The notes below the pieces were generated by a model. The model saw only the letters and a program-made list of their open reading frames with translations. It did no database searches and was not told where the DNA came from. Shown piece by piece: positions 12,826 to 52,942 of a stretch of 64,000 nucleotides of DNA (its first letter is position 1; the number at the start of each line of letters is the position of its first letter). Origin of the DNA: Chloroflexi bacterium B3_Chlor (GTDB taxonomy: Bacteria; Chloroflexota; Anaerolineae; UBA7937; B3-Chlor); the NCBI GenBank assembly GCA_005223035.1, contig NJBK01000001.1:1-64000 (forward strand), read 5' to 3'. The position numbers were made by a program, and so were the translations under genes.

Positions 12826-12834
12826 TGTGCTCTC

Positions 12835-14292: not shown

Positions 14293-14352
14293 CTCCCTTT
14301 GAGTTTCTGGATTCTGTCGAGAAGTAGGACAGCATCGTCTTCATCCGCTGAC

Positions 14353-15216: not shown

Positions 15217-15267
15217 GCTCTCTCTTCTGATATTGTCATCTCTCGCGTACTCTGTATCCTGTATAAG

Positions 15268-16689: not shown

Positions 16690-16799
16690 GACGGTTATGT
16701 TTCTTCCTCCTTCGCTAGTACTGCTGTTGTACCTATGGTCATTGGCCCTGGCGGATAGAACGCCCTTCAGGTCTTGGATAATGGCTGGTGCCCGAAGGC

Positions 16800-17855: not shown

Positions 17856-17858
17856 TCA

Positions 17859-19205
17859 TCAGTAGTGGGCCACCAACCTGCTTAGCTCATCCGCGTGGGA
17901 GACATCTTCGAAATTCCAGACCATCTCTACCAGCTTGTCCGCGTGAGATTGATCCAAGACGAATCCGGTCAGCCAGCGAAACTTCCTTTCCACCTGCTCC
18001 TCATTCCATCCCTGGGGGAATCTGACCCCGCCCTCCGTGGTTCCTGATGCAAACTGCTGCCCATCCTTCAGAGTGATCGTGACAGCGCTGACATACTTAC
18101 CTCTCGGGTCTCCCACTGAGACTAGGCAGTATAGCTGATTGAACTCCTCCGACTCGACCAGTTCCACCTTCTTTGCCAGATCGCGAATTTGCTCGTCGCC
18201 GAGCCGCTCCTCCAGGATCTGCCGCGGGCCGACCTCGTTGTCGAGAAGAAGCACGGCCAATGGCCAAGCCAGACTGAACTGGGCTTCCTCGGTAGTAGTC
18301 GGAAGCTCTGTGCCCAGCCGATGGGCTTCGTGGAACGTCTCAACTCGTATGTGAGCGATTTCCTCCGCTGGGATGTTGTGCCGATGCATCAAGCTGCGGG
18401 CCGCATCCAGGGAAGGGTGGGTCCAGGCGCAGCAGGCATACTGTTTCCAGGCGATCCCGTTTACCATTATGTATCGCTGGCCAATGTCAGCCACCCACTC
18501 CTTGTACTGATCGAAGCCAAGAAGGCACGGAATGGCGGTGAAACCGGATGCTGCCAATTGGGCGGCGACAATGCCGGTCACCGTTCCCCAGCCAATGCCG
18601 TGCTTAACCATCGTCGGTGTATCTATGTCCCGCATCATTGGCAGATCGGGCGCGTGATATTCCGCGATGCCCAGGGCATTCTCGATCTGTTCCTCGGATA
18701 GCCCCAACAGATTGGCCGCCACCGCTGCACACGCCACCGACCCCCACGATCCGCACGCTTGGTACGTAGTGTGGTGGTCGTGCCAGCAGCGAGCGGTGCG
18801 AAGGGCCACCTCGTAGCCGACGACCATCGCGGACATCATCTGCGGTCCATCAGTTCCCAGTTTCTCGGCCAGAGCCAAGGCGGTGGGAAAGATCTGGGCA
18901 CCGGGATGCCCCCTGGTATACTGTGCACAACCATCGATGTCGAGGGCGTTGGCAGCATATCCGTTGGCGAAGGCGGCTCCGATGGCGGAAACCCGCTCGT
19001 CGTGCAACAGGATCGTTGCCTCTTTCCCCGGCAAGGTCTCGAGGGCACAGTCAGTGGCGATTCGACTGACTCGTGTGAGTGTGCCGGACAGCGTGGCACC
19101 CAGGTCATCCAACAACGCCATTTTGACCCGTCTCTGCACTGGCGAGGGCAATGCCTCCCAGTGACATTGTTGAACAAAACGAACCACACGCTCCAGCCCG
19201 TTCAT
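17859..19205 (-). CDS. MmgE/PrpD family protein
   Basis: Protein of 448 residues with the MmgE/PrpD all-helical domain followed by the smaller alpha/beta domain. Recognisable phrases: GATLSGTLTRVSRIATDCAL, YAANALDIDGCAQYTRGHPGAQIFPTALALAE-type motif (with the conserved D and H region), GIAEYHAPDLPMMRDIDTPTMVKHGIGWGTVTG (split here only for description), and YACCAWTHPSLDAA. Family members include 2-methylcitrate dehydratase, cis-aconitate decarboxylase and several isomerases, so a (de)hydration or decarboxylation of a di- or tricarboxylate is likely. The start codon overlaps the stop of MttB paralogue 4 by 4 bp, the sign of translational coupling. Beside methylaspartate ammonia-lyase in the same island, a role with a mesaconate-like acid is possible, but this is inference. 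Confidence 0.88.
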   Translation of the reverse strand: MNGLERVVRFVQQCHWEALPSPVQRRVKMALLDDLGATLSGTLTRVSRIATDCALETLPGKEATILLHDERVSAIGAAFANGYAANALDIDGCAQYTRGHPGAQIFPTALALAEKLGTDGPQMMSAMVVGYEVALRTARCWHDHHTTYQACGSWGSVACAAVAANLLGLSEEQIENALGIAEYHAPDLPMMRDIDTPTMVKHGIGWGTVTGIVAAQLAASGFTAIPCLLGFDQYKEWVADIGQRYIMVNGIAWKQYACCAWTHPSLDAARSLMHRHNIPAEEIAHIRVETFHEAHRLGTELPTTTEEAQFSLAWPLAVLLLDNEVGPRQILEERLGDEQIRDLAKKVELVESEEFNQLYCLVSVGDPRGKYVSAVTITLKDGQQFASGTTEGGVRFPQGWNEEQVERKFRWLTGFVLDQSHADKLVEMVWNFEDVSHADELSRLVAHY

Positions 19206-20668
19206 CCTTTCGCCTCCTGGGCTTCTTCACGTGCCTCGGCCTGCTGTAGAATGCTCTCAATGCGTTCAGCCACCTGCTTTGGCAGTGGGGGCGGTTCGTG
19301 CGCGGCTAGAATCTCGTGCAACCGGGCCTGAATGCGGTCCTTCATTGTTTGAGATCCTGCCGCTTTCCAACCATCCCACCCGTTGCGATCCATTAGCTTG
19401 GGAGCCCAGATTTCCGCACGACAGCGACTGGCGGTCTCCTCCTCAGCCATGAAATGCCCTGCTGGGCCGACCCTATCAATCAGATCCAGCATCAAGCTAT
19501 CATCGCTGACCTCGATGCCGCGCATGATGCACCGACTCATGGCAATGATCTCGTCGGTCATGACCAGCATCTCCAAGGAGCCAATATCTGCGCAGTCGAG
19601 AAAACCCACGTCGTGCACTAACGTCGCCCCACTCAATCCCGAAAGGATCACTTGCAGGGTGCTCTCGATAGCTGCCTGCAAGCCCAGGCCTTTGTCCTCT
19701 GAGGCGCCGGCGGTACCCATAAAGGGAACCCTTAGATAACGCGAGATGTCGGACATGGCAGCACTATACAGGCTCATCTCCGGTGCACCGTAGGAGGGCC
19801 GGCCAGTGCGCAGATCCATCGGCTGGGGCACGCTGCCTATGCATACCGCAGTGCCCCGCTTCTTGAGCTGGATGATCGCTAGACCGCTCAATGCCCCGGC
19901 CAGGGAGATGACAAGCGTACCCGCAGCGGTCACTGGTGCAGTCGCTCCTGCACTGCCACCTCCAAGATAAACGATGGGCACGTCGTGATCGGCGGCCCAG
20001 AGCACGTTCGCCACATCCTCGTCCGTATGCACCAGCGGAGGCTGAAAGGTCGAGAAGAGGGCAAAGAGAGGTCTCTGGCGAAGCGTTTTCTCGCTGCCTG
20101 CAATGGCCAACGCGATTTGGTGGATGTCTGAGACATTCTGGGTGGAATAGGCCCAGGGTAGCACAGGCTTGCCCGTATTCGCGATCATCTCAGCGAACTC
20201 GTACACAGGCGCTAGGGAGGAGGTCACATCGCTGATTAAGCCCAACGACATGACGTAGTCGATATTGTCCAGGGCATCACATACCCGGGCTGTCAGGCCG
20301 GGATCACGTCGCTGGGTCTTGCGCCGTTGGCCGCTCTGTGGGTCAACGAAATGGGTGCAAGTGGGGCCAGGGCCGAAGTAGACTTGGTCAGGCGCAACCT
20401 GAATCCGATGTTCGTCGTCACGCCCCCACAGGGTGAAGGAACGAGGGTTGGCAGCGACCGCATCTTGGATAACATAAGGAGGAATGTGCACCCGCATGCC
20501 ATCCACTCGGGCGCCTGCCTCTAATAGCAGTTCTCGCGCCTCGGCGTTGAGCACTCTCACGCCAGTGCGATTCAGGCACTCCAGCGTTGCTTCGTAGAGC
20601 TTCTCGATCTGGCGATCCGACAGAACGCGGAACTGTGGTGTTTGGTGAGCATGGTAGTTGGTGTCCAT
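19202..20668 (-). CDS. MttB-family methyltransferase 4
   Basis: Full-length non-Pyl MttB-superfamily member, 488 residues. It opens with LSDRQIEKLYEATLECLNRT, contains YFGPGPTCTHFVDPQSGQRR (Pro in place of Ser in the usual GPGSDC motif) and ends with GPAGHFMAEEETASRCR, where Ala replaces the second Gly of GPGGHF. These small departures in otherwise conserved loops suggest a substrate different from paralogues 3 and 5. It is translationally coupled to the downstream MmgE/PrpD gene (4-bp overlap). ATG 20668 follows GAGGGA. Confidence 0.9.
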   Translation of the reverse strand: MDTNYHAHQTPQFRVLSDRQIEKLYEATLECLNRTGVRVLNAEARELLLEAGARVDGMRVHIPPYVIQDAVAANPRSFTLWGRDDEHRIQVAPDQVYFGPGPTCTHFVDPQSGQRRKTQRRDPGLTARVCDALDNIDYVMSLGLISDVTSSLAPVYEFAEMIANTGKPVLPWAYSTQNVSDIHQIALAIAGSEKTLRQRPLFALFSTFQPPLVHTDEDVANVLWAADHDVPIVYLGGGSAGATAPVTAAGTLVISLAGALSGLAIIQLKKRGTAVCIGSVPQPMDLRTGRPSYGAPEMSLYSAAMSDISRYLRVPFMGTAGASEDKGLGLQAAIESTLQVILSGLSGATLVHDVGFLDCADIGSLEMLVMTDEIIAMSRCIMRGIEVSDDSLMLDLIDRVGPAGHFMAEEETASRCRAEIWAPKLMDRNGWDGWKAAGSQTMKDRIQARLHEILAAHEPPPLPKQVAERIESILQQAEAREEAQEAKG

Positions 20669-20695
20669 AGTTCCCTCTCTCAGCGCACAGTGTTA

Positions 20696-22135
20696 TCATG
20701 CCGCTGTAGCCAGGATTTCCTGAATCTTTCGCTTCTTCTCCGGGTCCAGGGGTTTGGGTTGATGTTCTTTGATGATCTCCTTGACTCTGACGTTGAGTCG
20801 CTGGCTTAGAGTGGTGCCGCCCGCTCTCAACCATGTCCCTCGTCTATTGCGGTCGAGCAGGCTCGGGAACCAGAAGTCGTGGAAGCGGTTACGAGTCTCC
20901 TCAGTGCCTAAGAAATGGCCACCGGGGCCAACGCTGTGCAGTTCATCTACCAGGAGGGTGTCTTCGCTAACCTGGATTCCCTTCATTATGTGGTCTGTCA
21001 TGGCTACAAGTTCATCGTTCAAGACGATCATTTCAAAGCAGGTGGTGAGGCCGCTCTCCAAGTAGCCCACGTCGTGAGCCAGGTTGTTGCCACTGAGCCT
21101 GGCCATCAGCACATGTAACATAGCCTCCATGGCAGCCTGTTCGTCCATGACTTTGGAGTCGGAGCAGGCACCATGTCCCCAGGTGGGCATGCCATACCAG
21201 CGGCCCAATTGGCCGACGGCCGCCTTGGTTAGCTGGAACTCGGGCGAGCCGTAAGAGATTTCCCCTCCGCTCATGTCCATATGGTGCAGGCCTGCTCCGA
21301 AGACAAAGGGGGCGCCAGGTCGCTTCAGCTGGTGCACCACCAAGGCGCTGAAGATCTCAGTCAGGGACATGACCAGACCTCCGGCCATGGTGATTGGTGC
21401 TGTACCGCCCATAAGCGTACCTGGGGAGTGTACGACCGGCAGGCCGTATTCGGCTATGAGCAGCAGCTTATCGATTGCCGTCTCCGACTGTTGGAGCGGC
21501 GAACTGGGCTCGGAGTAGAGCAAGATATGCTGCTGTTCCACCAGGGCTTCATGGCTGCCAGCCACGGCTGCAGCCATGTCGATGGCGCGTTGGCAACTGG
21601 CTCGGTCGTTGGTCACGAAAACGATAGGTTTGGTGGTATGCTCCAGCATCAACGCCATCTGGGTGTCATATTGCAGAGGCACGTCCACATCATCAGGGAT
21701 GCCCATGGACATGAGGAAGTGGATGTTGGGTAGGGCGTCGCAGAGGTGATAGCCGTTGATCAGATCCGCCTGGGTGAACTTGCGATGTCTGCCGGTTTCA
21801 GGATCTATGATATTGGGACAATCGGAGCCAGTGCCAAAGTAGACGTTGGCACCCTGCAGGAACATCGCTGGCTGTCCATCACGATCGCACATGACGATTC
21901 GGCTGGGTGTGGAGGCGATGGCATCTTCGACCATAGCTGCTGGGAACTTGGCGAGGTTACCATCGGAGATGAAGGCACCGGCCTCCTTCAGTAGGTACAA
22001 TGCCTCGTGATGCTGGAATCGGACACCAGTCCTTCGCAGCACTTCCAAGGCAGCCAAGTGAAGGTCTTGGAGTTGAGTATCAGATAGGATAGCGAACTGG
22101 GGTGATTCGAACGGAATGGAATTGACGACCTTCAT
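20696..22135 (-). CDS. MttB-family methyltransferase 5
   Basis: Non-pyrrolysine MttB-superfamily protein, 479 residues. Motifs: LSDTQLQDLHLAALEVLRRT, YFGTGSDCPNIIDPETGRHR, HTTKPIVFVTNDRASCQ, VHSPGTLMGGTAPITMAGG, YGMPTWGHGACSDSKVMDEQ and GPGGHFLGTEETRNRF. It is the first MttB in transcription order, 27 bp upstream of paralogue 4 and downstream of the amidotransferase-like gene. Expected role: methyl transfer from a methylated amine to one of the two corrinoid proteins encoded at 24.5 and 32.6 kb. Confidence 0.9.
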   Translation of the reverse strand: MKVVNSIPFESPQFAILSDTQLQDLHLAALEVLRRTGVRFQHHEALYLLKEAGAFISDGNLAKFPAAMVEDAIASTPSRIVMCDRDGQPAMFLQGANVYFGTGSDCPNIIDPETGRHRKFTQADLINGYHLCDALPNIHFLMSMGIPDDVDVPLQYDTQMALMLEHTTKPIVFVTNDRASCQRAIDMAAAVAGSHEALVEQQHILLYSEPSSPLQQSETAIDKLLLIAEYGLPVVHSPGTLMGGTAPITMAGGLVMSLTEIFSALVVHQLKRPGAPFVFGAGLHHMDMSGGEISYGSPEFQLTKAAVGQLGRWYGMPTWGHGACSDSKVMDEQAAMEAMLHVLMARLSGNNLAHDVGYLESGLTTCFEMIVLNDELVAMTDHIMKGIQVSEDTLLVDELHSVGPGGHFLGTEETRNRFHDFWFPSLLDRNRRGTWLRAGGTTLSQRLNVRVKEIIKEHQPKPLDPEKKRKIQEILATAA

Positions 22136-22304
22136 AACCGATTCCCCGCCTCGTAGCCAAGCAAGTCTGGCTCACGCCTCAACAGTGACACTTCTTCATC
22201 AGAACGCCTATTGCTGTGGATCATTCCTGATGATCCCCTTGTGCTCTCCGGGCTCTTGCTGCGCAAAGCCCAATATGGTCCGCCCTTGCTAGCAGATAGA
22301 AACA

Positions 22305-22991
22305 TCAGAGGCCAGAAATGCGAAAGAAATTCCTCAATACTTGCTTCCCGGCAGGGTGTTCTTCTGAGTAATCCTCTGGGTGAAACTGGGTCCCATACAC
22401 GGGCCGCGCCTCGTGTCCGATAGCCTGAATTGGACACAAATCGCTCTCTGCGAGGCGCACGAACCCGGCCGGGATCGCCTTTAGTTCCCAGTAGTGCCAT
22501 TGGCTGAAAACAGGTTTCCGGCCCAGTCCATCGAAGAGCGGGTCGGCCCGCACGATACTGATAGGATAGTATCCTTTCTCCTTTAGCATGCCTGGCCGGT
22601 AGTTGGGATTCGGGTCAGCCATGGCCTCAGGTAGCCGCCCCATAGGACCACAGGGTGCATCGTGTAGCAACGCAATCAGTTGCAGTGCGCCACAAAGTGC
22701 AAGGATCGGCCACTCACCTCCGTTGATAATCCGTTCCAACTCGTCAAAGGTACGCAGATCATACTGATCCCAGTCTGATACGTTGCCGCTGATCAGCAGC
22801 GCTTCCACATTCCACGCCCTCAGTCTCTCGGCCGTCACTCGCGTGTAGTGCTGGATCAAGCAGGGCAGTCCCGAGATTTCCTCGAAGCGGAGTTTGTGGC
22901 GCAGAAGCTGACCGAGGTGTGATTCAGCGTGTGTGGGGTGGGCCAGGTAGCGACTGTGTTCTAGAAGCACGTAGCAGAGCATACTCCTCAC
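22305..22991 (-). CDS. Class I glutamine amidotransferase-like protein
   Basis: Protein of 228 residues with a class I glutaminase-type fold. The nucleophile elbow reads LALCGALQLIALLH (Cys at about residue 99) and the catalytic His/Glu pair is in YGTQFHPEDYSEEHP near the C-terminus. A conserved LISGNVSDWDQYDLRTFDEL region takes the place of the usual GGP loop. It is a stand-alone domain and the family includes gamma-glutamyl hydrolases, such as PuuD-type gamma-glutamyl-GABA hydrolases, as well as GMP synthase glutaminase-like proteins. In this island, hydrolysis of a gamma-glutamyl amine is conceivable but unproven. Spacing to methylaspartate ammonia-lyase upstream is 10 bp, so they are cotranscribed. 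The gap 22136-22304 below it is empty. Confidence 0.8.
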   Translation of the reverse strand: MRSMLCYVLLEHSRYLAHPTHAESHLGQLLRHKLRFEEISGLPCLIQHYTRVTAERLRAWNVEALLISGNVSDWDQYDLRTFDELERIINGGEWPILALCGALQLIALLHDAPCGPMGRLPEAMADPNPNYRPGMLKEKGYYPISIVRADPLFDGLGRKPVFSQWHYWELKAIPAGFVRLAESDLCPIQAIGHEARPVYGTQFHPEDYSEEHPAGKQVLRNFFRISGL

Positions 22992-23001
22992 TGGCCCCTC
23001 A

Positions 23002-24399
23002 TCACTCCCTTAGGGCCCTGGCTTCGATCTCTGCCAGGGCGCGGTTCATCTCGTTCTGCACCAGGCTAATGGCCTCATCTACCCCCATTCCCGGCTTGGC
23101 CATGATGATGTCAGGTTGGGTCGCCAGGCCCACGTGAGTTGCCACCTGAGCCGAGAGGTCAGTCTCGGCACAACTGCCACCCAGGAGAGTTCCCACGCCG
23201 CCGGCTTTGCAGGCCAACACAGCTTCGATGGAGTTGTGCACACTCCCCAGGTCTGGCATTTTGATCTGGATCATATCCACAGCCAGTGCGTCTACGAAGG
23301 CCTTGATGTCATCAAGGGTGTTTGCCCATTCGTCAACGACCAGTTGCGTGTTCATGTTGCGGAAGCCAACGTAGTCGCGCAGCGTCTTCATCGCTTCTAT
23401 CTGGGCCTCACGGCTCTCCATGATGATGGGGCTCTCCACTCGCAGGGGGTAGGGTTTCGTTGCCAGGTCCAGGGCGTAGAGATGTCCCAGCACCCGGCCC
23501 AGGTTGTTCTCGAAAATCTGTCCTAGCGCTCCATGCAAGTCCAGATGAATGGTCGGACGATAATCAGATCCGCCCAGTTGCCTAATGCGCTGCTTGAGCC
23601 AACGTGCGTACGCGAGTAACCTGGTGCCATCCTCGGCGAGTTGTTCAGGGATATTATCCACCAGGGTGTGGGAGAGCGAAGCGACACGACGGAGAATCAT
23701 CTTGTCGGCCCCAGCGTGCCGTTCAGCGCCACATTGGGCGTGGATGGGGACCGGCCCGTCGGGCAGCGGCAGGCCCCATTCTTCGGCAATCACTTCGGCC
23801 ATGGTCACGCCCCGAGCCAGAGCCACCGACTTCAACAGGGCCTGACTCACACCATAGCGGACAGCGGTATGCAATGAACGCTCTACGGGGAGGCGCTCTG
23901 TAGTCACCTTTTCTTTCTCCCGGGTTGCTCGCTCAAGACCCATGGTCAGGAAATCCCGGCGGGACCATTCTCTTCCGCTAAGTTCCGCTTCGGCTTGGGG
24001 TAGCGGCTGGCTTACCTCCACCGACTCGATTAGCATGTCCACCTCGGCCGCTAGTTGGTGGAAGCTGGTGAGTTCCCGGCCTTGTAGGGCTGGAGTGATC
24101 GCGCGACGAATCGTAGCCAAGCCCTCCTCGGTACGGAAGACCGGGTCGCGTCCTGCCCCTCCGCTATAGCAGACCGCCACGCAATCTCCCCAAACCACGG
24201 TCCGATCATCCAGGACCAGCCCCACTGAGACTGCCTCTGCTACCTCTCGAACTACTCGGAATCCGGATGTGACCGGTGTGGCTTGATGGGCCTGAGAACG
24301 CGATATTGACCGCGCCTGGAGGGCTGCCATGTCTCCATAGTAGTAGGCACCAACGGCAGGTACAGTCAAGATATCAGTGATATGCCAAGGCTTGGCCAT
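23002..24399 (-). CDS. Methylaspartate ammonia-lyase
   Basis: Enolase-superfamily lyase that converts L-threo-3-methylaspartate to mesaconate and ammonia. The N-terminal segment (ILTVPAVGAYYYGDMAAL, GDCVAVCYSGGAGRDPVF) and the barrel motifs match the family. The metal ligands are visible as IHLDLHGALG, RVESPIIME and LVVDEWANTL, and the catalytic Lys as MIQIKMPDLGSVHNS, followed by TLLGGSCAETDLSAQVATH. At 465 residues it is slightly longer than the well-known clostridial enzyme (about 413), with the extra length around residues 130-180. In the methylaspartate pathway it follows glutamate mutase, a B12 enzyme not found in this window. It may act on an N-methylated or other aspartate analogue here. 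It lies between a corrinoid protein gene and the amidotransferase-like gene. Confidence 0.85.
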   Translation of the reverse strand: MAKPWHITDILTVPAVGAYYYGDMAALQARSISRSQAHQATPVTSGFRVVREVAEAVSVGLVLDDRTVVWGDCVAVCYSGGAGRDPVFRTEEGLATIRRAITPALQGRELTSFHQLAAEVDMLIESVEVSQPLPQAEAELSGREWSRRDFLTMGLERATREKEKVTTERLPVERSLHTAVRYGVSQALLKSVALARGVTMAEVIAEEWGLPLPDGPVPIHAQCGAERHAGADKMILRRVASLSHTLVDNIPEQLAEDGTRLLAYARWLKQRIRQLGGSDYRPTIHLDLHGALGQIFENNLGRVLGHLYALDLATKPYPLRVESPIIMESREAQIEAMKTLRDYVGFRNMNTQLVVDEWANTLDDIKAFVDALAVDMIQIKMPDLGSVHNSIEAVLACKAGGVGTLLGGSCAETDLSAQVATHVGLATQPDIIMAKPGMGVDEAISLVQNEMNRALAEIEARALRE

Positions 24400-24456
24400 C
24401 GTTTCGTCACGGAATGTAGGTGCAATGCACCAGCTGTACAGACGGACTTTGCTACT

Positions 24457-25089
24457 CTAAGACTGGAGCCACACCCTAGCTAGATCAACCGCCGAGACAG
24501 CATCGTAGGCGTATCCATCAGCACCGATCTTTTCCGCGAAGTCCTGGGTAACGGGTGCGCCCCCAACCATTATCTTGACCTTGTCTCTCAGCCCAGCGTC
24601 CTTCAGTGCTTGGATGGTGGTCTCCATCTCATCCATGGTTGTGGTCAGGAGCGCGGACATACCCACGATCTGCGGATGGTGTTCCTTTATCGCCTCTGCG
24701 AACTTGTCGGCCGGGGCATCTATCCCCAAGTCCACGACTTCCATCCCGACTCCGCTCAACATCATGCCCACTAAGTTCTTCCCTATGTCATGGAGATCAC
24801 CCTTCACTGTGCCGATAACGAATGTCCCGAGAGCTGTACCTTCACTCTCGCTCAGCAAAGGCTTGAGTACGTCCATGCCTGCGTGCATCGCCTTGCCAGA
24901 GCGCAACACTTCCGGTAGGAACAGGAGGTCAGCCTTGAAGTCTTTCCCAACTTTGTCTATTCCCATCAGAAGCCCTTGGTTCAAGACCTCCTGGGCGGTA
25001 TGCCCTTTATCCAGTGCTTGTTTGGTGAGTGCGGCTACCTCATCAACTTTGCCGTCGTAGAGGGCATCGCCCATTCTATTCCAGTCCAT
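24457..25089 (-). CDS. Corrinoid protein (MttC-like)
   Basis: Methyl-carrier protein of 210 residues with an N-terminal four-helix cap domain (B12-binding 2, residues about 5-85) and a C-terminal Rossmann B12-binding domain. The cobalamin-binding motif DxHxxG is GTVKGDLHDIGKNLVGMM, followed by MSALLTTTMDEMETT and the terminal VGGAPVTQDFAEKIGADGYA. It accepts a methyl group from an MttB protein and passes it to the methyl-THF methyltransferase. The start was chosen at ATG 25089 because AAAGGAGG is 6 bp upstream; an ATG two codons earlier overlaps that site. It lies 57 bp upstream of methylaspartate ammonia-lyase. Confidence 0.93.
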   Translation of the reverse strand: MDWNRMGDALYDGKVDEVAALTKQALDKGHTAQEVLNQGLLMGIDKVGKDFKADLLFLPEVLRSGKAMHAGMDVLKPLLSESEGTALGTFVIGTVKGDLHDIGKNLVGMMLSGVGMEVVDLGIDAPADKFAEAIKEHHPQIVGMSALLTTTMDEMETTIQALKDAGLRDKVKIMVGGAPVTQDFAEKIGADGYAYDAVSAVDLARVWLQS

Positions 25090-25281
25090 ACCCATCCTCC
25101 TTTGCAAGAATCCATCTTGTGATATTGGCTATTCCCCTTGGCCTCGGTGCTGATGTGGTGCGTGGTGAACCTGTCGCGTCCCCGCAGAAGGTCGACGATG
25201 GGAATGGCGCCTCGTGTTTTCCTGGGGTTTGCTGAAAGGAATGCCGGATCGTAGACTCTGTGACAAATATCTTTTGATCTT

Positions 25282-33995: not shown

Positions 33996-35297
33996 ATGGC
34001 AGGAAGGGAATACAGGGTACCCTATGGCAGGGGAGAGCTGACCTTTAGCTTGCTCGAAGGGTTCAGGGAGGCGTTGGTCGTCGAACACGACCTTGTGCCG
34101 CCTCTCACGGACGTTCACGGGATCGTACGTTCGGCGTTGCGGAACCCTGCGGGGTGTCCGCCCTTGCGGGAACTCGCGAGTCCTGGCGACCGAGTGTGCA
34201 TCGTGGTGACCGATATGACGCGGCCGTGTCCGGATGGGCTACTGGTTCCGCTTCTGCTGGAAGAGCTTGGTGCAGCTGGGGTAGAGCAGAAGGACATCAC
34301 TCTCCTGGTGGGGGTAGGGATGCATCGCCCGACTACTACCGAGGAGAAGGTGGCTAAGTTGGGTGAGAAGATGGTCAGCCGGTATCAGGTGCTGGATTCT
34401 GATCCTTTGGACGGGAGCAGGCTGGTTGACCTGGGACTGACTTCGAGGGGCGTTCCCGCGGTGGTGAGCAAGGAGGCCTGTCAGGCTGACTTGTTGATAG
34501 CGACGGGGGTTGTGGAACCTCATCTCTATGCAGGATACAGCGGTGGTCGGAAGACGGTGGCTATTGGGGCGGCGGGGGAGCGCACGATAGAGGTGACGCA
34601 CGGCCCTCAGATGCTGGATCATCCTGGCACTCGCCTGGGAAGAATCGAGGGCAACCCTTTTCACGAGGCGGTGATGGAAATAGCCAGGAAGGCTGGCCTA
34701 CGCTTCATCGTGAACGTGGTGGTGGATGAGCATGCTAGAGTGGTAGCGGTGGAAGCAGGGGAAATGGAGGTGGCATTCAACCGGTTGGTTGAGAGTGCCA
34801 GGACCTTGTATGAGGTGGAGATTCCTCGCCAGTTCGATGTCGTGATCGGTGGGGTGGGTCATCCAAAGGACATCAATCTCTATCAGGCCTCACGAGCCCC
34901 CACGTACCTGTTCTTCGCTCCCCGGCCGCTGGTCAGAGCGGGCGGCACAATGATCATCCCTGCCCGCTGTCAAGAAGGTGTGGGGCAAGGTTTGGGTGAG
35001 ACACGTTTCCGCGAGATTGTGAAATCGGCCCGAGATGCAGCGGAGATCGTGGACGAGGCCCGAAAGCGTGGCTACCCGGCGGGAGGGCAACGCGCCTTCG
35101 TCATGGCGAAGGTCTTGCAGCATTGTGAGGTAATCATCGTGGGGTCCGAGCACCCTGAACTGGTCAAGGAGATGAAAATGATCCCGGCGGTGAATATGGT
35201 CGAGGCCCTGCGCTTTGTGGAGGACAAGCACGGGCGAGATGCCGACATGCTGATTGTCCGTCATGCCCTCCACACTCTGCCTGTGGTGAGGGCATAG
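33996..35297 (+). CDS. larA: LarA-family nickel-pincer racemase
   Basis: Lactate racemase (DUF2088) family protein, 433 residues, close to the usual LarA length. It has the LarA active-site landmarks: VGVGMHRPTT (catalytic His), GVVEPHLYAGYSGGRKTVAI (catalytic His and the Lys that links to the nickel-pincer nucleotide) and EVTHGPQM (nickel-ligand His). Homologues racemise or epimerise various 2-hydroxy acids, so lactate should not be assumed. The cofactor-forming LarB, LarC and LarE genes are not in the window. Transcribed from its own promoter, away from the methyltransferase island. Start ATG 33996 follows GGGGGG. Confidence 0.85.
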   Translation: MAGREYRVPYGRGELTFSLLEGFREALVVEHDLVPPLTDVHGIVRSALRNPAGCPPLRELASPGDRVCIVVTDMTRPCPDGLLVPLLLEELGAAGVEQKDITLLVGVGMHRPTTTEEKVAKLGEKMVSRYQVLDSDPLDGSRLVDLGLTSRGVPAVVSKEACQADLLIATGVVEPHLYAGYSGGRKTVAIGAAGERTIEVTHGPQMLDHPGTRLGRIEGNPFHEAVMEIARKAGLRFIVNVVVDEHARVVAVEAGEMEVAFNRLVESARTLYEVEIPRQFDVVIGGVGHPKDINLYQASRAPTYLFFAPRPLVRAGGTMIIPARCQEGVGQGLGETRFREIVKSARDAAEIVDEARKRGYPAGGQRAFVMAKVLQHCEVIIVGSEHPELVKEMKMIPAVNMVEALRFVEDKHGRDADMLIVRHALHTLPVVRA

Positions 35298-45791: not shown

Positions 45792-45904
45792 TTTCCCCAG
45801 TTCTTCCTCTCCTTGAGTTGGGGGTTCCGGTGGCGAGACTGCGTCGCTGTTGAAGGAGATGGAGGGACCACTCCTCTTTCTTACTTCTCCCTGAGGTGCT
45901 ACAA

Positions 45905-47062
45905 ATGATCTACTTCGATAATGCGGCTACTTCCTGGCCCAAGCCAGCGAGGGTTGTTGAGGCCCTGTCTCATTTCATTACGGAGGTGGGGGCCAATCCG
46001 GGACGTTCGGCTCACCGCCTGTCCATCGAGGCTGGTCGGACTATCTATGAGACCCGTGAGGCGTTGGCCCAGCTCTTCAATGTGGGTGACCCTTTGCGCA
46101 TACTGTTTGGCTTGAATGCCACGGAAGCCTTGAATCTGGCTTTGTGTGGCATACTGCGGCGTGGCGACCACGTTATTACGAGCAGCATGGAGCATAACTC
46201 CGTGATGCGCCCCTTGCGTGCCTTGGAGGCGCAGGGCGTGATCGAGCTCGACGTTGTGCGGTGTTCGTCCGAAGGCTTCTTGGACCCTACTGATTTGGAG
46301 GCGGCCATTGGGCCGCACTCCAGGATGATCGTGCTCAATCACGCCTCCAATGTGGTTGGTAGCCTATTGCCTGTGGCCGAGGCAGGGGCAATCGCCAGGA
46401 AGCACGACGTTCTCTTGCTGGTAGATGCTGCCCAGACCGCTGGAGCATACCCCTTGGACATGAAGGCTATGCAGATAGACCTGTTGGCTTTCACAGGCCA
46501 CAAGGCCCTCTTTGGGCCTCAAGGTACTGGTGGGCTCTGCCTCGGTGAGAGGGTCGTGGTGGATGATCTGCGACCTCTCAAGCGAGGGGGTACGGGCAGC
46601 AGATCCGAGCAGGAGGAGCAGCCGGATTTTCTGCCGGACAAGTATGAGAGTGGGACACCGAACACGGTGGGGCTGGCAGGTCTCAGGGCGGGGGTCGAGT
46701 TTCTGCTGGAGCAGGGAGTGGAGGCCATCCGTGCCCACGAGGTGGAGTTGACAGGACGGCTCATCGCCGGGCTTCTGGACATCCCTGGCGTGACCCTTTA
46801 CGGGGGTCACGATGCGGAGATGCAGGTGGCGAGCGTCTCGTTCAACGTCGAGGGTATTGCTCCCTCCAAGGTAGCGGCGCTACTGGATGAGCGGTACGAG
46901 ATCATGAGCCGGGTCGGGCTTCATTGTGCCCCGGCCGCACATCGGACCATCGGCACGTTCCCTGTGGGGGCGGTGCGCTTTGGTTTGAGCTATCTCAATA
47001 CGGTGGAAGAGGTAGAGGCAGCGTCGAGAGCTGCGAGGGAGATAGCAAGAAGCGAATCGTAG
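45905..47062 (+). CDS. Class V aminotransferase, cysteine desulfurase-like
   Basis: PLP enzyme of 385 residues. The start ATG 45905 follows GAGGTG, and the protein opens with the family phrase IYFDNAATSWPKPARVVEAL. The PLP Lys is in LAFTGHKALFGPQGTGGLC, and the Cys of the mobile loop is in GLHCAPAAHRTIGTFPVGA. It belongs to the cysteine desulfurase subgroup that is often found beside selenium genes rather than to IscS/SufS proper. It probably releases sulfur or selenium from (seleno)cysteine, passing it to YedF and the DUF3343 protein downstream, and finally to SelD. It is the first gene of the block and is controlled by the promoter at 45529. Confidence 0.85.
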   Translation: MIYFDNAATSWPKPARVVEALSHFITEVGANPGRSAHRLSIEAGRTIYETREALAQLFNVGDPLRILFGLNATEALNLALCGILRRGDHVITSSMEHNSVMRPLRALEAQGVIELDVVRCSSEGFLDPTDLEAAIGPHSRMIVLNHASNVVGSLLPVAEAGAIARKHDVLLLVDAAQTAGAYPLDMKAMQIDLLAFTGHKALFGPQGTGGLCLGERVVVDDLRPLKRGGTGSRSEQEEQPDFLPDKYESGTPNTVGLAGLRAGVEFLLEQGVEAIRAHEVELTGRLIAGLLDIPGVTLYGGHDAEMQVASVSFNVEGIAPSKVAALLDERYEIMSRVGLHCAPAAHRTIGTFPVGAVRFGLSYLNTVEEVEAASRAAREIARSES

Positions 47063-47112
47063 GTAGATTGGGGAAGCTACACGGGGTAATCTGGTTGGAG
47101 TGGAGGTGTGGA

Positions 47113-47709
47113 ATGACGAAGACCGTAGACTGCAGGGGACTTGAGTGTCCACAACCGGTCATTCTAACAAGAAAGGCTATGGCTGAAACCGAGGCGGTGA
47201 CGACTATTGTGGACAATGACACCGCCAAGATGAACGTATCGCGTATGGCCAGCAAGCAGGGGTACTCGGTTGAGGTGCAGGAGAAGGACGACGGTATCTA
47301 TCTGCATCTGAGCAAGGTGGGTGCTGTTCCGGAAGAGGAAACCGCGCCAGCTTCTGCGGCAGTCGGGCCTGGTGGCCCCACGGTGGTACTTATCCCGAGC
47401 AATGGCTTGGGACGAGGAGATGAAGAGCTAGGGCGTATCCTGATACGTTCATTCCTGCACACACTGGATGAGGTGGAACCATTGCCCGCGACCATGGTCT
47501 TCATCAACGGTGGCGTCAAGCTGACGGTCGAGGGGTCCCCGGTTGTGGAGGACTTGCAGGCTCTTGAGCAGAGAGGCGTGGACATATTGGCTTGTGGTAC
47601 TTGCCTCGGCCATTTCGGCTTGAAGGAGAAGATTGCGGTCGGGGAGATCTCCAACATGTACACCATTTCGGAGACTCTACTAGGGGCTGGCAACGTGATT
47701 GCTTTGTAG
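47113..47709 (+). CDS. yedF: YedF, selenium metabolism sulfurtransferase-like protein
   Basis: Protein of 198 residues. Residues 1-70 form a TusA/SirA-like domain with the conserved Cys in VDCRGLECPQPVILTRKAM; residues 90-198 form a DsrE-like domain with GLGRGDEELGRILIRSFL, TMVFINGGVKLTVEGSPVVE-type strand and ACGTCLGHFGLKEKIAVG, where a second redox Cys is expected. The start ATG 47113 follows GGAGGTGTGG. This two-domain YedF is a marker of bacteria that use selenium. It should carry persulfide or selenide between the desulfurase and SelD. 50 bp separates it from the upstream gene. Confidence 0.92.
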   Translation: MTKTVDCRGLECPQPVILTRKAMAETEAVTTIVDNDTAKMNVSRMASKQGYSVEVQEKDDGIYLHLSKVGAVPEEETAPASAAVGPGGPTVVLIPSNGLGRGDEELGRILIRSFLHTLDEVEPLPATMVFINGGVKLTVEGSPVVEDLQALEQRGVDILACGTCLGHFGLKEKIAVGEISNMYTISETLLGAGNVIAL

Positions 47710-47718
47710 GAGGATGTC

Positions 47719-47946
47719 GTGGGGGACCCACAGTACAGCGTCGTTCTGTTCCAGTCAACTAGCGGCGTCCTACGAGCTGAGAAACTGGCCAAAGGGGCGG
47801 CTTTGAAGGTCAAGCTCATCCCTGTGCCCCGCCATCTTAGTTCTGATTGTGGCGTCTGCCTTAGGTGCGAGTCGGCAGACGTCCACAGGGTGCGTTCTAT
47901 CCTCGATGCCGCAGGGGTCGAGTTTGATGGAATCCGTCCCTTGTAA
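47719..47946 (+). CDS. DUF3343 putative Se/S carrier protein
   Basis: A 75-residue protein starting at GTG 47719 after AGGAGG. It has the family features: YSVVLFQSTSGVLRAEKLA, LKVKLIPVPRHLSSDCGVCL and a second Cys (LRCESADV). Members are small selenium-gene-linked proteins thought to carry Se or S on the paired Cys. It lies 9 bp after yedF and completes the three-gene block. Confidence 0.88.
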   Translation: MGDPQYSVVLFQSTSGVLRAEKLAKGAALKVKLIPVPRHLSSDCGVCLRCESADVHRVRSILDAAGVEFDGIRPL

Positions 47947-48212: not shown

Positions 48213-48241
48213 TTGACCCACGGGAAGGGCTTCAGTAGAAT
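48213..48241 (+). promoter_or_regulatory. Promoter of the SCP2/KARI-like operon
   Basis: TTGACC (48213-48218), 17 bp, TAGAAT (48236-48241). Expected start point just upstream of the GTG at 48280. Confidence 0.65.
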
Positions 48242-48279: not shown

Positions 48280-48693
48280 GTGGTTGGAGAACGAAGGCCC
48301 AGCAAGGAGGAACTGGTCCCATTGCTGAGCCGGGCGATCGAGTTGACAGGAACTCAGCTTGCTCCTGACACCGTTAGAGCCGTGGCTGAGGTGTTCAGGG
48401 TGCTCCTCTGGCATTTCGTGGATTATGATCTCAAGGCCTATTTCGTCATCGGCGACGCGGGAGACTTGAGCTTTGTCCCTCAGGCGCCAAGGGAGGTCGA
48501 TGGCACCGTAAAGCTTGAGGCCGCCGTTCTTCACGACGTAGCTCTCGGCCGGACGCCGGTGGCGATGGCCTTCCTAAGCGGGAAGCTACGGTTGCAGGGC
48601 TTGCCAGCTTTGAAGCTGCGCAGGTTCATTCCACTCCTGCAACCCTTTCTGGAGGGATACCGTCAAGCTTGGCAGGAGATCGAGGAGGGGTAA
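48280..48693 (+). CDS. SCP2-like sterol/lipid-binding domain protein
   Basis: A 137-residue protein. The C-terminal half reads GRTPVAMAFLSGKLRLQGLP, then ALKLRRFIPLLQPFLEGYRQ, the usual 'f..aflsGklklqGd..l.lklrrf..ll' end of SCP2-type lipid-binding domains. The N-terminal half is helical (SKEELVPLLSRAIELTGTQL). Start GTG 48280 with AAGGA at fair spacing. Bacterial members bind hydrophobic small molecules and often accompany modifying enzymes. It is 1 bp upstream of the KARI-like gene, so both are coexpressed. The function is otherwise open. Confidence 0.6.
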   Translation: MVGERRPSKEELVPLLSRAIELTGTQLAPDTVRAVAEVFRVLLWHFVDYDLKAYFVIGDAGDLSFVPQAPREVDGTVKLEAAVLHDVALGRTPVAMAFLSGKLRLQGLPALKLRRFIPLLQPFLEGYRQAWQEIEEG

Positions 48694-48694
48694 G

Positions 48695-49702
48695 ATGGTG
48701 AAGTTCTACCATGATGAGGACGCAGACCTTGGCCTCCTGGAGGACAGAACCATCGCCGTGCTTGGTTACGGTCATCAAGGACGAGCTCAGGCTTTGAACA
48801 TGCGCGATAGTGGGGTTCGGAATCTGGTCGTGGGGAATATCGAGGATGAATATCGAGACCAGGCGCTCGAGGATGGGTTTGAAGTCCTTGCACTGGCGGA
48901 AGCTGCACAGAGGTCCGACGTGATCTTTCTCCTCCTACCTGACGAGACAGCGCCTGTGGTGTATGAGAGGGATGTCGCCGAGCGGCTGCTGGAGGGGAAG
49001 GCATTGGTCTTCGCCTCGGGATACAACTTGACCTATGGGCACATCCAGCCGCCTGATTTCGTGGACGTCATCATGGTGGCTCCTCGCATGCTGGGCCAGG
49101 GGGTGCGAGAGCTTTACCTCGAGGGGGCTGGCTTCGTAAGTTTCGTCTCTGTTGAACAGGACGCTTCCGGGCAGGCCTGGTGGCTTGCACTGGCAGTGGC
49201 AAAGGCTATAGGTTCGACCAGGGCAGGCGTGATGGAGTTGAGTGCGGCGCAGGAGACCCATCTAGATCTCTTCATGGAGCAGGCCTTTGGGCCGCTACTT
49301 GGCGCCGCTATCACCACCGCTTACCACGTGGGTGTGGAAGCGGGCTTTCCCCCTGAAGCCCTCCTTCTGGAGCTCTATATGTCAGGCGAGATGGCCTACG
49401 TGTTCAGGACCATGGCGGAACTTGGTTTGATGAAGCAGGCACGTCTTCACTCGCTGACCAGCCAGTTCGGCGGCATGATTCGTAGTTTGGCCCTGAATCG
49501 GGAGGAGATCGACAGGAGCATGCGCGATGCGCTGGATGACATATTCAGCGGGGCTTTCGCCCGCGAATGGGAGGAGGAGCGCAAGGCCGGGTACCCGTCT
49601 TTCGCTTTCATGCAGGGGATGTCCGACGAGGAGCACCCGCTCACGGCAGTCGAGGACCGCCTGAGAGGGCATCTACGTATGGGGTGGGACGAGATCGTAT
49701 AA
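48695..49702 (+). CDS. Divergent ketol-acid reductoisomerase paralogue
   Basis: Unmistakable IlvC-fold protein of 335 residues: FYHDEDADLGLLEDRTIAVL, GYGHQGRAQALNMRDSGV (NADPH Rossmann motif), ILLPDE-equivalent FLLLPDETAPVVY, DVIMVAPRMLGQGVREL and VSVEQDASGQAWWLALAVAK. However, several positions that are near-invariant in true KARI have changed: FAHGFNIHFG is FASGYNLTYG (both His lost), the catalytic Lys of VAPKGPGH is Arg, and the FECLHE metal-binding segment is LELYMSGE. DLF(x)E of the metal site is kept. It therefore probably keeps NADPH binding but does not catalyse the branched-chain reaction; a reductase on a lipid-like substrate is possible. No other ilv genes are nearby. It is between the SCP2-like and DUF362 genes. 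Confidence 0.85.
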   Translation: MVKFYHDEDADLGLLEDRTIAVLGYGHQGRAQALNMRDSGVRNLVVGNIEDEYRDQALEDGFEVLALAEAAQRSDVIFLLLPDETAPVVYERDVAERLLEGKALVFASGYNLTYGHIQPPDFVDVIMVAPRMLGQGVRELYLEGAGFVSFVSVEQDASGQAWWLALAVAKAIGSTRAGVMELSAAQETHLDLFMEQAFGPLLGAAITTAYHVGVEAGFPPEALLLELYMSGEMAYVFRTMAELGLMKQARLHSLTSQFGGMIRSLALNREEIDRSMRDALDDIFSGAFAREWEEERKAGYPSFAFMQGMSDEEHPLTAVEDRLRGHLRMGWDEIV

Positions 49703-49716
49703 TGGGAGCAAGATAG

Positions 49717-50655
49717 ATGGCTGTGACGGACACACTGCGCGGCATGTATCATCTGTTTGCGGATCGAAAGCCTGGGAATCTGGAAGTCAGGCCGCCCAAG
49801 GCGCGCAAGACCGCCTTGTGGACCGATCAGGGCGAGCCGCTGGTTAGCAAGGTGCATGTGCTCAACGGAGTCAAGGAGGGCGTGGCGAAGAGCCTAGAGT
49901 TGCTGGGTGGGCTTGACAGGCTCATCCGACCGGGGGATCAGGTGCTGGTCAAACCTAACTTCAACAGCCCCGACGCTTTCCCAGGTTCGACGGACCTGGA
50001 ATTCTTACGGGCGGTTCTTGAGTTGTTAATGGATGCCGGAGCAGCACTCACAGTGGGTGAGAGCGCTGGAGGACTCTGGCGGCCCACTAGAAACACAGCG
50101 ACCAAGCTCGGAGCGCTTGATCTGCTGAGCGAGATGGGCGTGGACTTCGTCCCCTTCGATGCCGGTGAGACTGAGTGGCTGGAGGTTCCCACAGAAGGCG
50201 AGTACCTCCATCGCGTCGCCGTGCCCAGGGTGGCCTACGACGCCGACAGACTGGTCTATCTTCCATGCATGAAGACTCACAGATACGCTCGTTTCGCCCT
50301 CTCGCTCAAGCTGTCGGTGGGCTTTGTGCACCCCGGTCAGCGACTGGCACTGCACATGAAGAATCTCGAGGAGAAGGTGACGGAGATCAACCTGATATGG
50401 CAACCAGACCTGATAATCATGGATGGCCGAAAGGCCTTCGTCAGTGGAGGTCCCGAGCAGGGTGAACTGGTGGAACCAGGGATCATCATGGCTTCTGGGG
50501 ACATGGTTGCCATGGACCTCGAAGCCTTGAAGATACTTCAGTCCTATCCGGCCAAGAACAGGCTGGCCGGGGATCCGGTTGAGTTGCCCCAGATCGCGGC
50601 GGCCCTGAAGCATGGGTTGGCCACCGCCAACGGCGCCTACAAGGTTGTGGAATGA
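49717..50655 (+). CDS. DUF362 domain-containing protein
   Basis: A 312-residue protein of the DUF362 family. Recognisable features: VLVKPNFNSPDAFPGSTDLE near residue 78, VGESAGGLWRPTRNTATKLG, YLPCMKTHRYARFALSLKLS and IIMDGRKAFVSGGPEQGEL near the end. Many DUF362 proteins carry a ferredoxin domain; this one does not. No function is established for the domain. It overlaps the downstream epimerase by 4 bp (translational coupling) and is 14 bp after the KARI-like gene, so the four genes are one transcription unit. Confidence 0.88.
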   Translation: MAVTDTLRGMYHLFADRKPGNLEVRPPKARKTALWTDQGEPLVSKVHVLNGVKEGVAKSLELLGGLDRLIRPGDQVLVKPNFNSPDAFPGSTDLEFLRAVLELLMDAGAALTVGESAGGLWRPTRNTATKLGALDLLSEMGVDFVPFDAGETEWLEVPTEGEYLHRVAVPRVAYDADRLVYLPCMKTHRYARFALSLKLSVGFVHPGQRLALHMKNLEEKVTEINLIWQPDLIIMDGRKAFVSGGPEQGELVEPGIIMASGDMVAMDLEALKILQSYPAKNRLAGDPVELPQIAAALKHGLATANGAYKVVE

Positions 50656-51611
50656 CCGTTCTTGTGACTGGCGGGGCAGGCTATATAGGCGGGAAGCTTG
50701 TCGAAAGCCTGCTGGCGAGACGGGAAAAGGTCAGGGTATTCGACCTGAGAATAGAGTCAGCGCCCCACCTTGGTCGGATCGGTGCTGAATTGATGGCGGG
50801 AGACATCTTGGATCGCGCGGCGGTACGGCCGGCTCTTGATGGCTGCGACCGCCTCTTCCATGCCGCGGCGCTGTTTGCCATGTGGCAGCCCGACAAACGG
50901 GCTTACTATGAGGTCAACGTGGAGGGCACCAGGAACGTCTTGGAGACTGCCTTCGAGATGGGGATTGAGCGCGTCGTCCACACCAGTTCTGCGGTCACCA
51001 TCGGCGAGGGGCGAGACGGACTGGGCGATGAGGAGACGGTTCATAGGGGATATTTCCTCTCAGACTACGAGCGTTCCAAATACCTGGGGGAGCAGGTGGC
51101 CCTGGAGATGTCTCAGCAGGGGCTGCCGTTGGTATGTGTCAACCCCACGACGGTGTATGGGCCGGGACAGACCACACACATGACTGGGGCGCTTATCCGC
51201 TTCCTGAACGGTCGCCTGCCAGCCGTGGTGGATACCTGGCTGAACTTCGTATTCATTGACGACGTTGTGCAGGGACATTTGTTGGCTATGGACAGGGGGG
51301 AGCTCGGTCAAAGATATATCTTGGGCGGAGAGAATACCTCACTAGTTCAGTTTCTCAGCCTCGCTGCGGAGATCGCCGGAGTGAAACGCGAACCTCGCAC
51401 GGTGCCTGGCTCGCTCCTCAACGGGACGGCAAGAGTCATGGGAGCGCTCTCCAAGGTCACCGGGAGACGGCCCTGGGTCTCGCCAGACGAGGCAAGGACA
51501 GCCTTGCACAGCTTCATCTTCGACACCCGCAAGGCGAGGGAAGCGCTAGGCCTCGAGTTCACGCCATTGCTTGTAGGTCTACGGGAAACCGTCAACTGGC
51601 TGTTGGAGTAG
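50652..51611 (+). CDS. NAD-dependent epimerase/dehydratase family protein
   Basis: Extended short-chain dehydrogenase of 319 residues: Rossmann VLVTGGAGYIGGKLVESLL, active-site Ser in VVHTSSAVTIGEGRDG and YxxxK as YERSKYLGEQVA, then CVNPTTVYGPGQTTHM. It resembles HpnA-type and dihydroflavonol reductase-like proteins, which act on hydrophobic or sugar substrates. Fourth and last gene of the SCP2/KARI-like/DUF362 operon, coupled by a 4-bp overlap to the DUF362 gene. Confidence 0.88.
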   Translation: MTVLVTGGAGYIGGKLVESLLARREKVRVFDLRIESAPHLGRIGAELMAGDILDRAAVRPALDGCDRLFHAAALFAMWQPDKRAYYEVNVEGTRNVLETAFEMGIERVVHTSSAVTIGEGRDGLGDEETVHRGYFLSDYERSKYLGEQVALEMSQQGLPLVCVNPTTVYGPGQTTHMTGALIRFLNGRLPAVVDTWLNFVFIDDVVQGHLLAMDRGELGQRYILGGENTSLVQFLSLAAEIAGVKREPRTVPGSLLNGTARVMGALSKVTGRRPWVSPDEARTALHSFIFDTRKAREALGLEFTPLLVGLRETVNWLLE

Positions 51612-51886: not shown

Positions 51887-52942
51887 ATGAGTGCAGTAGA
51901 CAAATGGCGGCGTCTGACGACCTTGACCAAGGCGGCCGGTTGAGCGGCCAAGAGGGGGCCGGAGGCCCTGGCGCAGGTCGTGCGCCCTCTGCGAGAGATG
52001 TTTCGTCCGGAGGATTATCCGAACCTCCTGGTGGGGCTGGAGACGGGCGATGACGCAGCCATCTACAAGGTTAGCGATGAGCTAGCCATCATCCAGACCA
52101 TTGACTTCTTTCCGCCCATTGTGGATGATCCTTACGACTTTGGAGCCATCGCCGCTGCCAACGCCATGAGCGACGTCTACGCTATGGGGGGAGAGGTCAT
52201 CCTGGCGCTGAACGTCGCCAGTTTTCCCTCCGCGATGCCGCCTGAGATCGTCAGTGAAATACTGAGGGGTGGGGCGGAGAAGTTGGCTGAGGCGGGCGGA
52301 GTCGTCGCCGGAGGGCATACGTTGGACGACGACGAACCGAAGTACGGACTAGCGGTGATGGGTCTCGTGCATCCCCAGGAGATCGCCACCAAGGTGGGAG
52401 CGAAGCCCGGTGACGTACTCTTCCTGACCAAGCCTCTTGGCGTTGGCATTATCACCACTGCGGCAAAAGGAGGCGCGGCCGAACCTGCTCATTTGCGAGG
52501 TGCAGTGGAGCAGATGCTGATGCTAAATCGGAGAGCTGCCCAATTGATGAAGAAGGTGGAGGTCCACGCCCTCACCGATATCACAGGCTTCGCTCTCATC
52601 GGACACTCGTATGAGGTGGCGGAGCTGAACAAGGTCACCCTGCGCTTTCACTTCGACAAACTGCCTTTCTTGGATGGAGCGAAGGAGTACGCTGGCGACT
52701 GGCTGTTCCCCGGCGGCTCTTCCTGCAATAAGGATGCCTATGAAGGCAGGGTGAAGTTCGCGTCTGGGGTGGCGGAAGAGATGCAAATGCTGCTGTATAC
52801 TCCGGAAACATCGGGAGGCCTACTTATCTGTGTGGCGCCTGGTGACGCGGACCGACTGGCGCAGCTGTTCTCCCAAGAGGGGCAGCAGTACTGGATTGTC
52901 GGCGAGGTTGTGGAGGGTCCTGCCGCGATTGAGGTAGTTTGA
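51887..52942 (+). CDS. selD: Selenide, water dikinase SelD, selenocysteine-containing
   Basis: Makes selenophosphate from selenide and ATP. A frame starting at the usual stop-free position (51980) lacks the catalytic N-terminus, but from ATG 51887 (after CGGAGG) the frame is MSAVDKWRRLTTLTKAAG, TGA at 51941-51943, AAKRGPEALAQVVRPLREMF. SelD enzymes have Cys or Sec at exactly this AGxxAK site, so TGA must encode selenocysteine (residue 19 of 351). Downstream features are intact: GLETGDDAAIYKV, IIQTIDFFPPIVDDPYDFG, AAANAMSDVYAMGG, GGHTLDDDEPKYGLAV and DITGFALIGHSYEVA. A candidate bacterial SECIS hairpin follows the TGA. SelA, SelB and tRNA-Sec are not in the window. Automated gene calls would probably truncate this gene. 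Confidence 0.95.
51956..51968 (+). promoter_or_regulatory. Candidate bSECIS hairpin of selD
   Basis: GGGCC (51956-51960), GGA loop, GGCCC (51964-51968). The loop is about 17 nt past the TGA, the distance known for bacterial SECIS elements, and has the G at the start of the loop. An alternative CGGCC/GGCCG stem (51945-51961) competes. Confidence 0.5.

Follow-up and report, generated by a model that had tools for sequence, protein, structure and literature searches.

A ketol-acid reductoisomerase paralogue in a compact gene unit with SCP2, DUF362 and short-chain dehydrogenase genes in Chloroflexi bacterium B3_Chlor

The first 64,000 nucleotides of contig NJBK01000001.1 of Chloroflexi bacterium B3_Chlor (assembly GCA_005223035.1), hereafter called the window, carry four closely spaced genes for an SCP2-domain protein, a protein resembling ketol-acid reductoisomerase (KARI), a DUF362 protein and an extended short-chain dehydrogenase/reductase (SDR). 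A model that had read the letters without database searches (the sequence-only reading) regarded the second of them as a neofunctionalised KARI. We found that this KARI-like protein is a member of a paralogue clan, which is separate from ordinary IlvC and often coexists with it. The best explanation of the unit, to which we give somewhat less than even weight, is that a KARI not involved in branched-chain amino acid (BCAA) synthesis acts with the SCP2, DUF362 and SDR proteins to remodel a hydrophobic 2-hydroxy or 2,3-dihydroxy acid by redox or stereochemical reactions.

The KARI paralogue gene (48695-49702, forward strand) encodes 335 amino acids and was assigned to the APRM/SGE type by Pfam, alignment and tree. 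Both Pfam domains exceed their cut-offs (KARI_N, PF07991, 192.9 bits; KARI_C, PF01450, 79 bits), and the predicted model matches KARI structures with Z up to 39.6. The protein passes the ilvC model TIGR00465 (246.2 against a cut-off of 226.15) and scores 281.3 with PRK05479, for which the cut-off is 336. The clan is recognized by the signature VGNxxDxY, APRM and E-x5-E with SGE, and the window KARI carries all of these. In a tree of 73 KARIs, a 100/100 branch sets all proteins of the APRM/SGE type apart, including the putative ketol-acid reductoisomerase 2 of Saccharolobus solfataricus (Sso-KARI). A second tree with plasmid-borne relatives gave 100/99 for the clan branch and added a close homologue of BurG to the clan. 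BurG itself bears the signature. The paralogue is present in 53 of 396 genomes of the window's class (>350 bits, against <=336 for ordinary IlvC), and no relative was found in the viral contigs searched. Clan members are annotated as ilvC in public records.

The sequence-only reading was built on residues that are nearly invariant in IlvC and had seemed to be missing here. For both His and the catalytic Lys this was borne out by the alignment: S108 replaces the first His (FASGYN for FAHGFN), the second is gone (LTYG), and R131 in APRM takes the place of the Lys in APK. These are features of the clan, since Sso-KARI, inside it, shares both FASGYN and APRM. Also counted as lost was the second Glu of FECLHE. 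This was mistaken, because the segment reads E226-LYMSG-E232 with an insertion of two residues, the clan conserves both Glu positions, and E232 pairs with the catalytic E232 of BurG. Thus, all four Mg ligands are kept (D191, E195, E226 and E232); in Sac-KARI, two Mg2+ are bound by D191, E195, E227 and E231 (PMC5940873). As for the NADPH motif that had been noted, GYGHQG is indeed retained, but the loop for the 2'-phosphate is VVGNIEDEY, as in Sso-KARI and the NAD-binding BurG. A degenerate pseudo-enzyme was rejected from the kept metal ligands and the ratio of nonsynonymous to synonymous substitution (dN/dS) given below.

Three known enzymes are close enough for comparison. The best sequence match of the window KARI in the PDB is Sso-KARI (6jcv, 257.7 bits), with which it shares FASGYN, APRM, SGE and VGNxxDxY, and its model matches 6jd2 with Z 38.5. 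However, Sso-KARI is archaeal, 42% identical and on a long branch, and we know of no SCP2 or DUF362 partner for it. According to the PDB entry titles, its structures contain Mg2+, either NADPH or NADH, and CPD, a KARI inhibitor. The substitutions alone are therefore no proof of new chemistry, and what stands of the earlier claim of neofunctionalisation is a paralogue outside the ilv pathway. IlvC class I (TIGR00465) shares the fold and the Mg ligands, but the window KARI lacks the His of FAHGFN, has Arg for Lys and an insertion between the two Glu, and lies outside an ilv context. That a KARI can be neofunctionalised is already known in principle from BurG (PDB 7pcc), an NAD-dependent cyclopropanol synthase which acts on a 2,3-dihydroxy acid by oxidising its C2-OH, binds NAD+ and can reduce hydroxypyruvate (PMC9359912). 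BurG resembles the window KARI in its fold, APRM, VGNxDDxY and the E226/E232 pattern, and is also a paralogue outside ilv operons. It differs in having AHGHS where the window protein has ASGYN, in its location in a polyketide cluster and in its sulfonium diol substrate, and the two are 38% identical. With ASGYN, and with no polyketide genes seen among the window open reading frames (ORFs), the window protein was not assigned to the BurG type.

Separation from BCAA synthesis is seen in gene context. A genome of the same genus (G001) has an ordinary IlvC gene followed by leuA, and in three others (G025, G258 and G174) the ordinary IlvC gene is accompanied by ilvB, in G025 also by ilvD. The clan genes, in contrast, had neither ilvB nor ilvD as a neighbour at any locus examined, and the window KARI lies in a selenium locus and not among ilv or leu genes. 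In the window genome, neither ilvB over the cut-off, nor ilvD, nor ordinary ilvC was found, but the genome is 85% complete and their absence is thus not established. Among the Helarchaeota and Lokiarchaeia genomes searched, no KARI other than the APRM type turned up, and there it may have the ordinary role.

The lipid-binding partner emphasized in the sequence-only reading proved meaningful. The SCP2 gene (48280-48693, forward strand) starts with GTG and encodes 137 amino acids, and it passes Pfam PF02036 marginally (22.4 bits, cut-off 21.3). In five genomes of three genera, a KARI-like protein is fused to a C-terminal SCP2 domain in a chain of 494-539 amino acids. Two of the fused domains, tested with Pfam, gave 40.8 and 34.0 bits, and the fusions form one clade in the tree of 73 KARIs. 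One of them, in a genome that is 94% complete (G051), is the sole KARI there, and no acetolactate synthase (IlvB) was found in that genome. These five fusions, one of them in a near-complete genome without acetolactate synthase, support a real KARI-SCP2 partnership and a non-BCAA role. A literature search found no relevant publication on KARI-SCP2. As to the lipid-like pathway once suggested, the SCP2 partner stands, but its lipid character has SCP2 as its single basis, and several clan members belong to sugar-acid clusters.

The third gene (49717-50655, forward strand) encodes a 312-aa protein with 140.5 bits to DUF362 (PF04015) and no Lar_N match. Its predicted model (predicted local distance difference test, pLDDT, 85.9) gave strong matches to LarA-type structures only, among them a malate racemase (Z 17.9, 212 residues, 2.8 A). 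LarA was thus found by the fold search, whereas a DUF362 profile against PDB sequences found none. We know of no activity for DUF362. Pfam clan CL0471 joins the DUF362 and LarA families, and LarA1 uses His174, Lys184 and His200 (PMC11770544). The DUF362 motif H188-x9-K198-x14-H213 matches these three in spacing, and hhalign pairs H188 and K198 exactly with His174 and Lys184, though at low probability. In an alignment of 63 rows that includes duplicates, H188 and H213 occur in every row and K198 in 62. Fold, spacing and clan are thus the points in common with the nickel-pincer lactate racemase LarA (PF09861). Among 251 genomes of the phylum, LarC and DUF362 occur together in 74, DUF362 only in 15, LarC only in 54 and neither in 108 (odds ratio 9.9, Fisher p 1e-14, relatedness not corrected). 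The window genome encodes LarC on another contig (489 bits). A canonical LarA with Lar_N and LarA_C lies at 33996-35297 of the window and scores just over the DUF362 cut-off; the genome thus holds both LarA and DUF362.

The SDR gene (50652-51611, forward strand, 319 aa) is HpnA/3-beta-HSD-like, matching Pfam Epimerase with 129 bits and also 3Beta_HSD. Against TIGR03466 (HpnA) it reaches 282.5 bits, below the cut-off of 367.65, and it was not assigned to HpnA. An ORF check reproduced the four genes with the coordinates, strand and spacings first described (1 bp, 14 bp and a 4-bp overlap). For the single promoter that had been claimed, there is one plausible upstream site, TTGACC-17-TAGAAT at 48213-48241 on the forward strand, a consensus match only (10/12), with both hexamers unchanged in G001. 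The SCP2 and KARI genes of G001 have the same 1-bp spacing. Comparison with G001 gave dN/dS of 0.13 for KARI and 0.19 for SCP2, so that both genes are under purifying selection.

Selenium genes surround the unit. Upstream (45896-47945, forward strand) are genes for an SclA-like protein (TIGR01977), YedF (TIGR03527) and a Se/S carrier (PF11823), and downstream is selD (51887-52942, forward strand). In two sister genera (G002 and G003), DUF362-SDR occupies the same locus between the selenium genes (YedF/YedE) and selD, without SCP2-KARI. The four genes together thus form a composite that has so far turned up in a single genus, and the idea of a conserved four-gene unit was rejected.

In the favoured explanation, the KARI-like enzyme most likely depends on two Mg2+ and transfers a hydride at C2 of a 2-hydroxy or 2,3-dihydroxy acid, with NAD(H) as its cofactor or with NAD(H) and NADP(H) both accepted. 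By analogy with BurG and KARI, a carbon shift would be optional in this step. The SCP2 protein, a neighbour here and a fused domain in relatives, probably holds the hydrophobic tail of the substrate. DUF362 has the LarA fold and the three residues (His, Lys and His) by which LarA holds its nickel-pincer cofactor, and so might catalyse inversion or oxidation at the 2-hydroxy centre; the SDR probably works on an adjacent hydroxyl or keto group. Direct evidence covers the clan membership and retained metal ligands of the KARI, its distance from ilv genes, the KARI-SCP2 fusions, the synteny and the LarA fold of DUF362. From these parts we infer a cofactor, a substrate class, an order of steps, the role of SCP2, nickel-pincer use by DUF362 and a possible single pathway of four proteins. 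A bolder form, with the KARI paralogue physically joined to a lipid-type carrier domain in a hydrophobic 2-hydroxy-acid pathway and with DUF362 as a second nickel-pincer (LarA-type) enzyme family, seems doubtful to us.

Several results weigh against this explanation. In the DUF362 alignment, nothing corresponds to His108 or Arg75 of LarA, and the C-terminal domain is absent as well; for these reasons, and for want of a Lar_N match, the protein is not filed as LarA. Fifteen of the 89 DUF362-bearing genomes have no LarC, one of them in a single contig, so that dependence of DUF362 on LarC is not general. Similarity between the SCP2 protein of the window and the fused SCP2 domains is weak (E 0.15). 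Orthology between them is not demonstrable, and the KARI-SCP2 pairing may therefore have arisen twice. The lack of SCP2 and KARI at the locus of G002 and G003 means that the link between KARI and DUF362 is not old. Sso-KARI, with the same substitutions as the window KARI, reportedly has ordinary KARI activity.

The KARI may instead be a sugar-acid enzyme, as other clan members may be, that acts on a small polyhydroxy acid, the SCP2 of the window being incidental. Elsewhere, clan members indeed stand beside xylose-isomerase-like TIM barrels, GFO/IDH/MocA proteins, MR/MLE dehydratases, SDRs and carbohydrate transporters, and on haloarchaeal plasmids they lie inside sugar-acid clusters, again annotated ilvC. 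However, no sugar genes were seen beside the window KARI, and an incidental SCP2 is hard to reconcile with five fusions in three genera and a gap of 1 bp in two species of the window's genus; we consider this unlikely. It is slightly less likely still that the unit was assembled by chance, an SCP2-KARI cassette having landed in a selenium locus upstream of an unrelated, merely co-transcribed DUF362-SDR pair. The arrangement in G002 and G003, whose genomes have no APRM-type KARI, agrees with such an event, and in G001 the genes downstream of SCP2-KARI are hidden by the contig end. On the other hand, the KARIs sister to that of the window (93/95) are followed by an SDR gene in four genomes of the same family, and a DUF362 gene lies 474 bp from the KARI paralogue in Helarchaeota and 2.7 kb from it in G086.

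A functional KARI on acetolactate or aceto-hydroxybutyrate, kept as a reserve for BCAA synthesis and less strict about its cofactor, appears improbable. The TIGR00465 score, the complete Mg ligands, the ligands named for Sso-KARI in the PDB and the solitary archaeal KARIs all fit it. Yet four genomes with ordinary IlvC (G001, G025, G258 and G174), the persistence of the fusion in G051 and the distance of clan genes from ilvB and ilvD speak otherwise, and an SCP2 domain would be senseless for acetolactate. That the KARI-like protein is non-catalytic, a mere binding or structural partner, is very improbable: degenerate clan members do exist (family f21, E195 to Q and E226 to D), but the window copy keeps its four ligands, the Rossmann motif and the low dN/dS.

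These results concern annotation as well. A KARI paralogue present in many microbes has been overlooked, usually labelled as the ordinary enzyme. Since clan proteins carry the label ilvC and pass the IlvC model, amino-acid pathway predictions may err where a clan KARI stands alone. The signature separates clan paralogues from IlvC and unites BurG with Sso-KARI, and the KARI-SCP2 fusions are directly expressible candidates. With its invariant His-Lys-His, the large uncharacterised family DUF362 becomes a testable nickel-pincer candidate; if it is a second nickel-pincer family, both a cofactor and a type of reaction could be assigned to this widespread family.

Some further observations were made on the same genes and their surroundings. 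In one locus (L161), from one of the four genomes in which an SDR gene follows a KARI sister to that of the window, the order is KARI-SDR-GlcF-GlcD, the last two resembling subunits of a 2-hydroxy-acid oxidase. Like the MR/MLE and carbohydrate clusters of other clan members, these neighbours favour a 2-hydroxy-acid substrate. In Helarchaeota (L049, 9034-12869), an McrA-like gene, a 168-aa protein without a Pfam match and the DUF362 gene stand in this order, convergent with the KARI paralogue; the 168-aa protein had looked SCP2-like by eye, but Pfam, BLASTP and hhalign gave no support and this was dropped. In family f21 (14 loci), the altered metal ligands lie in LDLFVQQ and MMDLY, and the conserved cluster holds DnaB-like, DnaC-like and GNAT genes (names by eye); this paralogue is possibly non-catalytic. 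A plasmid of Eleftheria terrae (L256, 5992-8240) carries a close BurG homologue, annotated simply as NAD(P)-binding protein, beside fkbH and a thioester-reductase megasynthase. In G003 (L216), a YedE transporter takes the place held by SCP2-KARI in the window. SelD is probably a selenoprotein because of an in-frame TGA (Sec) at 51941-51943, within TLTKAAGUAAKRG; the listed ORF begins only past this TGA. Finally, several MttB-like methyltransferases, corrinoid proteins and an MtrH-like gene were read by eye at 11392-25107 of the window.

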